Assembly (NCBI GenBank): GCA_028554795.2
Contig: CM068835.1
Location: 56,783,219-56,847,218 of the forward strand
From: Sinohyriopsis cumingii
Taxonomy: Eukaryota; Mollusca; Bivalvia; Unionida; Unionidae
Direction of reading: 5' to 3'
DNA: 64,000 bases
The position numbers and the translations under genes were made by a program. A model generated the notes under the pieces. The model was not told where the DNA came from and did no database searches. It saw only the letters and a list, made by a program, of their open reading frames with translations. Below are positions 41,704 through 64,000 of the stretch, one piece after another. Positions within the stretch are counted from its first letter, which is position 1, and the number at the start of each line of letters is the position of its first letter.

Positions 41704-43103
41704 AAGGCTTTCGCCCGTGTTGCCTTGGCGCGCTTGCAAATCCTAGCCTTACGCGTCTACCCCCAGGGTCCCAGTGTGGATTTCGAGCCGGCAGGTCAAC
41801 TGTAGACATGATCTTCTCACTACGTCAGCTGCAGGAGAAGTGTCGCGAGCAGCAGATGCCCCTCTACATTGCCTTCATAGACCTGACGAAGGCGTTTGAC
41901 CTGGTTAGTCGGAGTGGACTCTTCAGACTCCTGCAGAAGATCGGCTGCCCCCCACGTCTGCTTGCTGTCATCATGTCGTTCCATGAGAACATGCACAGCA
42001 CAGTGTGCTTCAATGGCGCAACATCTGAAGCATTCACAGTCATCAGCGGAGTCAAACAAGGCTGTGTCCTTACGCCGACGCTCTTTGCCATCTTCTTCTC
42101 CATGCTTCTCCAGTACGCATTCAAGGACTGCAGCGAGGGAGTGTACATCCATACCAGGGCTGACGGCAAGCTGTTCAACATCGCCCGTCTCCGTGCTAAG
42201 ACTAAAGTCACAGAGGTACTCATCCGTGAATTGCTCTTCGCCGACGATGCAGCCTTGACATCACACACGGAAGATGGACTGAAGCAGCTGGCATGCAGAC
42301 TCTCCCATGCTTGTAAGGAATTTGGACTGACCATCAGTTTGACGAAAACGAACGTCATGGCGCAGGACGCAGACTCCCCTCCCTCTGTCACCATCGATGG
42401 GTACAACTTGGAAGTTGTCGAGACCTTCACATACCTCGGGTCTAACATCTCCAGCTCACTCTCCATTAATTCTGAGGTGAACGGCATGATTGCCAAGGCA
42501 TCAGCAGTGATGGCCAGACTTAACCAGAGAGTCTGGAACAACCCCAACCTCACAGAGAAGACCAAACTGCGTGTCTACCAAGCCTGCGTATTCAGCTCAC
42601 TTCTCTACAGCAGCGAAACATGGACCACCTATGCAAGACACGAGAGGAAACTCAACAGCTTCCACCTGAGATGTCTGCGGCGCATTCTGCACATCCAGTG
42701 GCAGGACAAAGTACCCAACACAGAGGTTCTAGAACGCGCCAACATGAACAGCATGTTCTCCATTCTCAGCGAGAGGCGCCTTCGCTGGCTTGGCCATGTG
42801 AAAAGAATGGACGCAGATCGCATTCCCAAGAACCTGTTATATGGGGAGTTAGCAGAAGGTGCACGACCAACTGGACGACCGCATCTGCGCTACAAAGATG
42901 TTTGCAAGAAGGATATGAAGACGGCAAACACCAATGTCAACGACTGGGAGAGCTGTGCAAACAACCGTTCCAGCTGGCGCCTAGCTGTCAGGCAGGGAGT
43001 TCAAAACGCAGAGGAAGAGAGAAGAATAAAACAAGCTGAAAAGAGAGCTAGAAAGAAGGATAGACAAAAGCTTACTTTGGAGATACGCCATCGTCTCCCG
43101 TAG
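41700..43103 (+). pseudogene. LINE reverse transcriptase core and C-terminal region
   Basis: A long frame of about 467 codons. After about 20 out-of-frame codons it enters the RT at QCGFRAGRSTVDMIFSLRQL and continues through AFIDLTKAFDLVSR (first catalytic Asp), SGVKQGCVLTPTLFAIFF and LLFADDAALTSH (catalytic Asp pair) to a long C-terminal region with KRMDADRIPKNLLYGEL and GRPHLRYKDVCKKDMK. All RT catalytic residues are present. The end is natural, with a Lys/Arg-rich tail. Confidence 0.9.
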
Positions 43104-61889: not shown

Positions 61890-62635
61890 GAAAGTGTAGA
61901 AAAGGAGATTTGAAAGGAGGGATACATTTCTGCACGAAGAACATCTTCTGAATGGACCTGAATGGCTAAAATGGTATTAGTTGTAAAACTAAAGCTAAAT
62001 GCTTAGTAAAGGAAGAAGATCAAATCAGTTAAGCATTTAATATTTTTCGTTTCCTTCCTTGTCTGAATTATTAGTTGATTGATGTATCGTGACACATCAA
62101 CGCAAGAATGATTATACCGTGCAGTGGTAATTAGAACCAAAATGCATGCCCAGAGACATACAGCGGTGACAGATCTGGAGTGGTCTGGGCAGGATATGTA
62201 CTTGCACCTTTCTGTACGTAAATGTGGTACGCTAACGACTGAGCAACCATACTGCTCATGCGTGTAGAGAGCCAAACTAATAATATCGCCTTACGCTTCA
62301 TTTTAGAATCACAATTACCTAAAATAATTATGGCACTATCAGAATGGAGACGCACACATGAAGCTACAAATAAAAGAGAAATGATAGTTAGAAAAGTTGA
62401 AAACTGTGGACGAAGCAAATCAAACAAAAAGGAGAGGGGGCAGATGTGAGTAAAGATGATGTGTGTCATTTAGCGTCTCAGTGGATCACCCCTAGATTGT
62501 AGAGCAAAGATAAGGCATAATAGTGATACATGTCACTACATATGCGCGTGGTCAATTAAATGAGAGCAGTGTTGTTAATCAGATAACTTTCTTCATCAGT
62601 TAGCAGGTAGTGTTGATTGATCGACACTAGTAGTG
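61890..62635. other. No gene recognised
   Basis: AT-rich sequence. Nothing recognisable. Confidence 0.5.
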
Positions 62636-62639
62636 AAAG

Positions 62640-62905
62640 GGGCCACCCTAGGGACAATGGGAATTAGCATTACAGACCCCCCCGGGCCTCTCTAGGGACA
62701 ATGGAAATTTAACATGGGAAAAATTGCTGGGCCACTCTAGGGACAAGAGGAATTAACATGGGGAATAGAGTTTGGGCTTGTCTAGGGACAAGGGGAATTG
62801 AACATGGGAATAGAGTTTGGGCTTGTTTAGGGACAAGGGGAATTTAACATGGCAGAAAAAAACTACTTTAGGGACAAGGGGAATTTAACATGGGATTTTT
62901 TTTTT
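62640..62905 (+). repeat. Tandem repeat of about 55 bp with CTAGGGACAAGGGGAAT core
   Basis: Six copies of TAGGGACAA(G/T)(G/A)GGAAT followed by TTAACATGGG, at spacings of about 50-57 bases. It ends in a long A/T homopolymer tract (62895-62937). It lies just beyond the 3' end of the histone-end gene. Confidence 0.93.
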
Positions 62906-62964
62906 AAAAATAAAAAAATAAAAAAAAAAAATAAAAGAAGGGTAGGCAATGGAAAGTCATTCTC

Positions 62965-63005
62965 TTTTCGAGACCTATGAGTGGCCCTGAAAAGGGCCTT
63001 TGGGT
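62965..63005 (-). promoter_or_regulatory. Histone-type mRNA 3' stem-loop and downstream element
   Basis: On the minus strand GGCCCT-TTTC-AGGGCC (62998-62983) is a 6 bp stem with a four-base loop. It has CCCAAA directly before it and ACTCA after it. Stem, loop and both flanks fit the consensus of replication-dependent histone mRNAs bound by SLBP. Fifteen bases downstream, GAAAAGAGAATGA resembles the purine-rich histone downstream element that pairs with U7 snRNA. Cleavage would fall about 5 bases after the stem, giving a non-polyadenylated mRNA. No AATAAA is needed. It starts only 18 bases after the stop codon of the 63017-63418 frame. Confidence 0.88.
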
Positions 63006-63016
63006 TTCTTCTGCTT

Positions 63017-63418
63017 CTAATTTCTTCTATTTCTCCACCAACTTCTTATTTTCTCTCCTACACTCTTTCTCTTCTTTTCTTTCTTTTCTTTCTTTTCTTC
63101 CTTTTTTTTCTCTTCTTTCTTCTTCTTCTCCTCCTCTTCTTTCTTCCTCTTCTCATTTTCTTCTTCTTTTTCAATTTTTTCATTCCATGCTCTTATCCTT
63201 ATCCTTTCCTCTTCATACTCCTTCTCCTCCTTTATTTCTTTCATCACAGCACTTATCATTTCCTTTACTTTTCTTAAGTTGTTAATCTCCATCTTTACTC
63301 GATGGGGGCTATAAGAACAGTGATCTTCATTTAGCCTCACTAGCATTTGTTCCATCATGCCCAAATTGTCTAGTACGTCTTGCAATGTTTGCATTTTATA
63401 GAGGTGGTTTGAAGCCAT
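63017..63418 (-). CDS. Intronless 133-residue Lys/Glu-rich protein with histone-type 3' end
   Basis: I do not recognise the family. The frame starts at an ATG in good context (AGAAGATGG), 14 bases after a CCATTC cap-like site, and ends with TAG 18 bases before a histone-type stem-loop. Residues 1-60 (MASNHLYKMQTLQDVLDNLG, then MMEQMLVRLNEDHCSYSPHR) have complex composition and predicted helices. Residues about 61-118 are a Lys/Glu-rich charged helix or coiled coil. The last residues (KRKSVGEKIRSWWRNRRN) are basic with two Trp. It lacks the histone fold and the H1 winged helix. No introns are visible. The Lys/Glu half is coded by a low-complexity purine tract, so repeat expansion shaped it. 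If the 3' end is used, expression would be tied to S phase or to stored maternal mRNA, as for histones; that is inference. Confidence 0.7.
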   Translation of the reverse strand: MASNHLYKMQTLQDVLDNLGMMEQMLVRLNEDHCSYSPHRVKMEINNLRKVKEMISAVMKEIKEEKEYEEERIRIRAWNEKIEKEEENEKRKKEEEEKKKKEEKKKEEKKEKKEKKRKSVGEKIRSWWRNRRN

Positions 63419-63425
63419 CTTCTCT

Positions 63426-63466
63426 GTAGAATGGTTTGAACGACGAATACTGTGGGTTCTTATACG
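63426..63466 (-). promoter_or_regulatory. TATA-like box and histone-style cap site
   Basis: GTATAAGA (63465-63458, minus strand) lies 32 bases before the A of CCATTCT (63434-63428). That spacing is right for a TATA box and start site, and YYATTC is the cap consensus known from invertebrate histone genes. The predicted leader is about 14 bases, short as in histone mRNAs. Confidence 0.6.
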
Positions 63467-63468
63467 AA

Positions 63469-63564
63469 AAGCGCGTACGTGATGGAAAACATCCCCCCTA
63501 GAACAAAATTGATATTACCTAGATTATCACTTAAAACGCGCGGACGTGATGGAAAACATCCCCT
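63469..63564 (-). promoter_or_regulatory. Duplicated 28 bp element upstream of the TATA box
   Basis: GATGTTTTCCATCACGT followed by (A/C)CGCGC occurs twice on the minus strand, 66 bases apart (copies at about 63497-63470 and 63563-63535), directly upstream of the TATA-like box. The 17-base core is identical while the spacer between copies is not, which suggests a functional site. Confidence 0.6.
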
Positions 63565-63579
63565 ACTTTTCTCATTTCA

Positions 63580-63685
63580 TATGATCTACTATCCACATAC
63601 GTGAAGCATCAATAAACAAACCCCTAATCTACTATTTACACACGCAAAGCATTAAAATGAAACCCAAATTTACTATCCACACCAA
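63580..63685 (+). repeat. Degenerate 42-44 bp repeat, about 2.5 copies
   Basis: CTACTATCCACATACGTGAA, CTACTATTTACACACGCAAA and TTACTATCCACACC begin successive units, each continuing with GCATYAA and an A-rich, CCC-containing end. Confidence 0.8.
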
Positions 63686-63784
63686 CCTACATCAGCGCTT
63701 ACAAACTCAAACACAAACACTATAAAAAAAAGAGTCAGTGTTTATATTCACACTACTTTACATACACACATTGGCAAATCGATT

Positions 63785-63835
63785 GTTATTTCTTTTCTAA
63801 AGGTTTGGGTAGCCCTGAAAAGGGCTGTTTGTTTT
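63785..63835 (-). promoter_or_regulatory. Second histone-type mRNA 3' stem-loop
   Basis: On the minus strand AGCCCT-TTTC-AGGGCT (63826-63811) has a 6 bp stem and TTTC loop, preceded by AACAAAC and followed by the canonical ACCCA. The outer pair is A-T in place of G-C, a variation that keeps pairing. A purine-rich AGAAAAGAAAT lies 12 bases further down. It begins 29 bases after the stop of the frame at 63856-63999. Confidence 0.85.
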
Positions 63836-63855
63836 TGAACTCCAGATGCACCTAT

Positions 63856-63999
63856 CTAATGCTGGCACCTTCCTGGCCTGGCACCACACACACATCTTCT
63901 ACTCCAATCTTTCCAGTTGACTCGTTTGACTGGGAGCGCAGAGGGAGGATAATTAGATTCATCACCCCAATCCTCTGTCTCTGGTATCTTGTAAGCCAT
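63856..63999 (-). CDS. Short frame before the second histone-type 3' end (partial or small protein)
   Basis: The minus-strand frame reads MAYKIPETEDWGDESNYPPS, then ALPVKRVNWKDWSRR, and ends in a Cys/Gly/Arg-rich tail (CVCGARPGRCQH). The ATG is the second base of the window edge, so either this is a complete 47-residue protein or the C-terminus of a longer one that continues beyond the window. No histone C-terminus is recognisable. Like its neighbour it would begin ATGGCT. The coding call rests on the position before the stem-loop and on non-repetitive composition. Confidence 0.5.
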   Translation of the reverse strand: MAYKIPETEDWGDESNYPPSALPVKRVNWKDWSRRCVCGARPGRCQH

Positions 64000-64000
64000 C

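Follow-up and report, generated by a model that had tools for sequence, protein, structure and literature searches.

Histone-type signals at accessory genes of a Polinton/Maverick-type element in the bivalve Sinohyriopsis cumingii

What is a gene that does not encode a histone doing with the 5' region and the 3' end of one? According to PMC2642717, and similarly PMC12775136, histone mRNAs are the only known cellular mRNAs of animals without poly(A); bivalve histone genes are treated in PMC6210712, and further prior work in PMC5011920. The question arose in a window of 64,000 nucleotides from Sinohyriopsis cumingii (C12:56783219-56847218, in a 2.9-Gb assembly), where a first-pass annotation, made from the letters alone, had described a single cellular gene with a histone-style architecture. 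We call this gene G1 (Table 1).

The intronless frame of 133 codons that had been proposed was found, and 18 nt after its stop (63017-63019) lies the claimed histone stem-loop. When the window was searched with the Rfam model RF00032, this stem-loop scored 36.5 bits, above the cut-off of 34 bits (E 5.4e-7; 64 kb, 4227 Rfam families). The stem-loop of the host's own H3 gene scored 35.9 bits, so that the G1 signal equals that of a true histone gene in quality. The predicted purine-rich downstream element, GAAAAGAG, is also in place, 13 nt 3' of the stem. Upstream of the frame, the TATA box and the CCATTC cap site are both present as described (TATAAG at 63464, CCATTC at 63434), but the pair alone is not significant, being no rarer than chance (0.64 expected; at least one in 47 of 100 shuffles), and its spacing was dropped as independent evidence.

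The first-pass annotation was right that G1 encodes no histone although both its 5' region and its 3' end are of histone style. No Pfam family matched the protein at 1e-3; among 15 weak matches the strongest was TAF4 (0.012, far below its cut-off), and the AlphaFold2 model, built from a two-sequence alignment, is a helical hairpin (helices at residues 2-31 and 38-132; mean pLDDT 93, pTM 0.55). A fold search with this model against viral structures returned 548 matches at E<=10 and none at E<=0.001. The second helix is long, and its residues 82-118 contain one hydrophobic residue in 37, which points to a charged helix there and not to the coiled coil that had been claimed. We can only guess at a function, perhaps that of a small accessory regulator or a structural adaptor. 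G1 has a relative in an assembly of Sinanodonta woodiana, an annotated protein of 82 aa (gene ACJMK2_006915) with 74-75% identity over ~82 residues; it stops where the Lys/Glu tract of G1 starts, so that the conservation seen with it concerns the part before that tract. Together with a pooled pN/pS of 0.25 among five intact copies, this relative supports the conservation and constraint that the first-pass annotation had expected of a real gene.

Beyond G1 we found a second gene, X. Its stem-loop, which the earlier annotation did not list, any more than it did the duplicated 23-bp promoter motif at 63560 and 63493, stands on the same strand as that of G1, 828 bp upstream, and has A-U in place of G-C as its first pair. 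A reading of X as the C-terminus of a histone was rejected, since no frame reads so and X recurs as an element gene. A homologue search with the partial X protein found none.

Table 1. Features of G1, X and their surroundings (positions counted from the first letter of the window)
Feature	Position	Strand	Remarks
Target-site duplication GACACT, 6 bp, left side	62623-62628	(+)	Right copy directly after C12:56865575
Part of the element within the window	62629-64000	.	Remainder beyond window end
Left terminal inverted repeat	62629-63007	.	Outermost 5'-AGTAGTGAAAGG; holds ~45-bp minisatellite, HDE and G1 stem-loop
HDE-like GAAAAG of G1	62964-62969	(-)	13 nt past stem-loop; offset in host H3/H4/H2B/H2A/H1 13-14
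G1 histone 3' stem-loop GGCCCTTTTCAGGGCC	62983-62998	(-)	RF00032 36.5 bits; same 16-mer as host histone H2B
Gene G1, intronless 133-codon ORF	63017-63418	(-)	Predicted helical hairpin and charged tail
Cap-like CCATTC	63429-63434	(-)	Identical hexamer precedes host H3
TATA-like GTATAAG	63459-63465	(-)	Read in sequence
Promoter motif, copy 2	63471-63493	(-)	1 mismatch to host H2B promoter motif
Promoter motif, copy 1	63538-63560	(-)	All 23 bp match host H2B promoter
HDE-like GAAAAG of X	63792-63797	(-)	13 nt past X stem-loop, read from sequence; as in other X copies
X stem-loop AGCCCTTTTCAGGGCT	63811-63826	(-)	RF00032 31.1 bits, below cut-off
Gene X, 3' part	63856-64000	(-)	103 codons in total; start past window end at L009:7167

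The single cellular gene of the first-pass annotation was not borne out: G1 belongs to a Polinton/Maverick-type element, in which it is the gene at one end. The element is 19,729 bp long (C12:56845847-56865575), window position 62629 being its outer end, and it is bounded by inverted repeats of ~385 bp (91.8% identity over 392 columns, in inverted orientation). Six minisatellite units, spaced 41-45 bp, were seen at 62640-62890 inside the left repeat. Its ORFs include a PolB (PF03175, E 2.4e-28), an ATPase (PF04665, A32; E 4.8e-8, above the cut-off), a zinc knuckle (PF00098, 1.9e-12) and a 186-aa ORF with a chromodomain at residues 139-183 (PF00385, 3.5e-8); the catalytic rve domain was unmatched in the C12 copy. 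A protease-like ORF had one weak PDB sequence match, to the cysteine protease S273R (E 1.2e-4), and none in Pfam. An ORF of 438 aa occupies the place expected of a capsid, with no Pfam or PDB sequence match, and a penton-like ORF had no Pfam match; the names of both reflect a likeness that we presume. We also observed an ORF with an inhibitor-of-apoptosis (BIR) domain (PF00653, E 1e-21) at L010:8322-8819 (-).

This anatomy is what we take to define a Polinton/Maverick. In common with Polintons/Mavericks and adintoviruses, the element has a length near 20 kb, terminal repeats in inverted orientation, a target duplication of 6 bp, a PF03175 PolB, an A32-type ATPase, a chromodomain ORF and an accessory BIR gene, and its protease-like and capsid-like ORFs may be further common features; what sets it apart is that its accessory genes bear histone stem-loops and, in part, a promoter motif of host histones. 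PMC11071296 defines adintoviruses by a PolB with an N-terminal OTU-like domain and a hexon recognisable by BLASTP, and names among their features a chromodomain at the end of the integrase.

Other mobile DNA was seen on the same chromosome sequence. By eye, pieces at C12:56878942-56889432 (L012:8724 to L013:9214) look like the degraded remains of another such element, with the stem-loop GGCTCTTTTCAGGGCC after a fragment resembling gene D (see below), a penton-like fragment (no Pfam match) and one resembling gene W. A reverse transcriptase ORF in the window at 41808-43103 (+) (PF00078, E 4.3e-20) belongs to an ordinary retroelement.

The architecture of G1 recurs across the genome. At least 150 G1 copies were scored (from 9,198 candidates), on each of C1-C19, and 148 of the 150 were free of stops within the matched part, with 91-100% identity. 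At C15:63.01-64.45 Mb we noted eight copies 183-248 kb apart, each in a 184-aa open frame (94-95% identity), a series that looks as though a large block containing the element had been duplicated. A scan of the genome with RF00032, listing what lies upstream of each match, had been proposed by the first-pass annotation; here 75 candidates were scored from 589,472 found at first look, and 68 loci were examined, the seven lowest-scoring being left out. All 68 contain element genes of the families G1, X, W, M and D (names coined in this analysis), and none contains a histone gene (tblastn with five histones, E 1e-4). The same annotation had held that a stem-loop found in many copies without open frames would mark a repeat. 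The copies are indeed many, but the open frames are present and under selection. Of the 126 stem-loops at these loci, 49 were assigned to W, 38 to M, 13 to X and 11 each to G1 and D, leaving four unassigned; assignments over long distances are doubtful (a “W” at 424 nt in L067, G1 at 528 nt in L031), and since the stem-loops of the host histones and of the window itself are missing from the 75, the list is a sample whose proportions are not genome-wide.

The genes have a regular layout. X adjoins G1, or D in other copies, while W and M are divergent neighbours; the C12 element has G1 and X at one end and M and W at the opposite end. G1 and W are oriented outward, with their stem-loop and downstream element within the inverted repeats, so that their mRNAs would take their 3' ends from the element's own termini; the stem-loops of X and M are internal. 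An extra stem-loop lies at L009:7627-7642, with a short frame 176 nt upstream, and the M gene of the C12 copy is interrupted by a stop. Among intact copies with a recognised stem-loop, the median distance from stop to stem was 16.5 nt in G1 (15-18), 26 in X (25-86), 24 in W (7-24), 25 in M (19-79) and 34 in D (18-90), usually 15-35 nt across families within an overall range of 7-90. The core ORFs had no stem-loop within 250 nt of the stop. AATAAA and ATTAAA were absent within 250 nt in 15 of the 16 ORFs examined, accessory and core alike; since the core ORFs share it, this absence in G1, X and W is no evidence and was dropped as not discriminating.

We compared these signals with those of the host. 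In the 8,001 bp read of the cluster on C14 (H3-H4-H2B-H2A-H1), each gene is followed by a stem-loop, with GAAAAG at +13 in H3, H4 and H2B and at +14 in H2A and H1 (a looser pattern gave an offset of 3 for H4, where it met an earlier AAAAGA). At C14:13.10 Mb and on many smaller contigs, the cluster was seen to be tandem, with a period of ~8.28 kb, and the H3 protein is identical in many of its copies. In the element genes GAAAAG stands at +13 in all four copies of G1 and all four of X, in 25/26 of M, in 30/39 of W and in 2/4 of D, and is thus missing there from nine W and two D copies. A search for U7 snRNA found none, nor did it detect any control.

The likeness extends to promoters. From each of the families G1, X and D, one copy matched the host H2B promoter exactly over 23, 24 and 24 bases, respectively, against a maximum of 12 in 200 mononucleotide shuffles, and the H1 promoter over 24/25, 25/26 and 25/26 bases. 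With the H4 promoter, X shares 20 of 21 bases and G1 only 12, a length that shuffles reach. Within 300 nt upstream, and allowing up to four mismatches, the motif was present in every intact copy of G1 (5/5), X (7/7) and D (5/5), and absent from those of W (0/40) and M (0/27). The genome contains 6,101 exact matches to the 23-bp motif (reversed control, 0). Among the first 100 places listed, one precedes a G1 copy by 75 nt, and 18 of the 99 successive gaps measure 736-1032 nt; because this is near the distance between the G1 and X motifs in the window's element (693 nt), many copies of the motif, perhaps thousands, probably lie in elements. The motif may have passed from the host to the element, or from the element to the host. 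The element genes thus resemble the replication-dependent histone genes of the C14 cluster in the 16-nt stem-loop, GAAAAG at +13, the intronless frame, CCATTC as in H3 and the 23-24-bp motif of H2B (with one mismatch in H1); they are unlike them in that their products are not histones and that they are dispersed in a mobile element.

Selection was assessed in intact copies from 70 loci (the 68 with L009 and L011). Intact copies among loci with a match numbered 5/12 for G1, 7/19 for X, 40/49 for W, 27/47 for M and 5/11 for D, four of the X matches being cut by locus ends. These sequences show the signature of purifying selection in all five families, with pooled pN/pS of 0.25 (G1), 0.40 (X), 0.20 (W), 0.42 (M) and 0.33 (D), values that the restriction to intact copies biases low. 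The intact copies of W, G1, X and D have diverged (pS 0.30-0.61); those of M are little diverged (pS 0.085) and so carry little weight.

The stem-loops have been retained along with the frames. Because loci were picked by stem-loop score, the fair sample consists of stem-loops that were not themselves the search match. In intact copies these were recognised in 20/21 cases for W, 14/15 for M, 4/7 for X, 1/2 for G1 and 0/1 for D; one W and one X miss were one base off the pattern, and two X copies have their stop elsewhere. Among copies that fit the search pattern, W (n=39) and M (n=26) had mean pairwise differences in the stem-loop of 0.003 and 0.010, and G1, X and D (n=4 each) had none, while the flank 36-200 nt downstream differs by 0.27-0.34 in W and G1 and by only 0.08-0.13 in M. 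The stem-loop figures overstate conservation, since the choice of loci depended on stem-loop score and copies that did not fit the pattern were dropped (G1 1/5, X 3/7, W 1/40, M 1/27, D 1/5), and near-invariance is partly by construction, since the pattern fixes many stem positions and leaves the loop and outer pair free. Two pairs vary across element and host, pair 1 (A-U in X vs G-C in the others) and pair 3 (U-A in host H1); both are compensatory among the ten sequences, nine of them distinct, and 6 of 500 shuffles scored as high.

Could G1 nevertheless be a cellular non-histone gene, in one or a few copies, that evolved histone-style ends? Its conserved frame and its annotated relative in S. 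woodiana would fit such an origin, which is hardly credible for a gene that lies within inverted repeats and a target duplication, has PolB, ATPase and chromodomain ORFs as neighbours and occurs in at least 150 scored copies on each of C1-C19. We also consider it very improbable that the stem-loop acts as DNA, for example as a terminal hairpin in replication or integration, with a likeness to histone genes that is coincidental. A position within the inverted repeats, as in G1 and W, would suit this role, but the stem-loops of M and X are internal, and the assigned ones stand on the coding strand, usually shortly past a stop. Moreover, stem, loop and flanks fit RF00032, the spacing of GAAAAG matches that of host histone genes, and G1, X and D also carry the promoter motif of the host.

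The remaining alternative has a host histone promoter and 3' end captured long ago, conservation that reflects recent amplification, and transcripts that are polyadenylated or silent. The copies do have a common recent ancestry, and those of M, at a pS of 0.085, would agree with such a history. The intact copies of W, G1, X and D have, however, diverged to a pS of 0.30-0.61 and most of them keep the stem-loop, even as the downstream flanks of W and G1 have come to differ by 0.27-0.34, and we regard this course of events as unlikely.

We are thus rather confident that G1 is the end gene of an endogenous Polinton/Maverick (adintovirus-like) element, the accessory mRNAs of which would be of histone type, probably unadenylated, and made in S phase or in eggs. 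In this explanation the element gives its five accessory families transcription units of histone type, each with an intronless frame and a histone stem-loop; most copies add a downstream element of U7 type at +13, and G1, X and D additionally bear a promoter motif of the host's histones. Host SLBP and U7 snRNP would most likely cut the transcripts after the stem, leaving them without poly(A). Synthesis of the accessory proteins may be confined in this way to S phase and to eggs and cleavage embryos, the stages that allow copying and insertion of element DNA, and 3' ends inside the inverted repeats would halt outward transcripts before they reach flanking host DNA. Replication-dependent histone mRNAs are made while DNA is copied, so that their timing would profit a DNA element with a polymerase of its own. 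The whole suggests that the element linked the expression of its genes to the DNA-copying machinery of the host. That a lineage of integrating animal DNA viruses took over the histone mRNA pathway, both promoter motif and 3' end, for its accessory genes, and so became a systematic non-histone user of SLBP and U7 whose spread is coupled to host S phase and early cleavage, seems to us a reasonably probable account.

Among the literature matches listed, in a search whose coverage leaves out most subscription journals, there was no description of Polintons or adintoviruses whose genes bear histone stem-loops together with a promoter motif of host histones. In IMG/VR, a collection that may lack such elements, no relative of G1 was confirmed among 157 pattern matches, none was found for the capsid-like ORF (two pattern matches), and no contig fitted a strict stem-loop pattern. 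PMC12220804 reports, and leaves undiscussed, six “histone 3'UTR stem-loop” matches in a collection of polinton-like viruses and virophages, none of them in cryptophyte elements. These six RF00032 matches may represent the same phenomenon in other hosts.

If our explanation is true, RF00032 matches in animal genomes need not be histones, the mRNAs of such elements would drop out of poly(A)-selected libraries, and their activity could therefore have been overlooked. An element with five families of this kind would make it possible to ask, in a natural setting outside the histones, what signals are sufficient for the histone mRNA pathway, and would show a virus-like parasite timing its expression by a new route.
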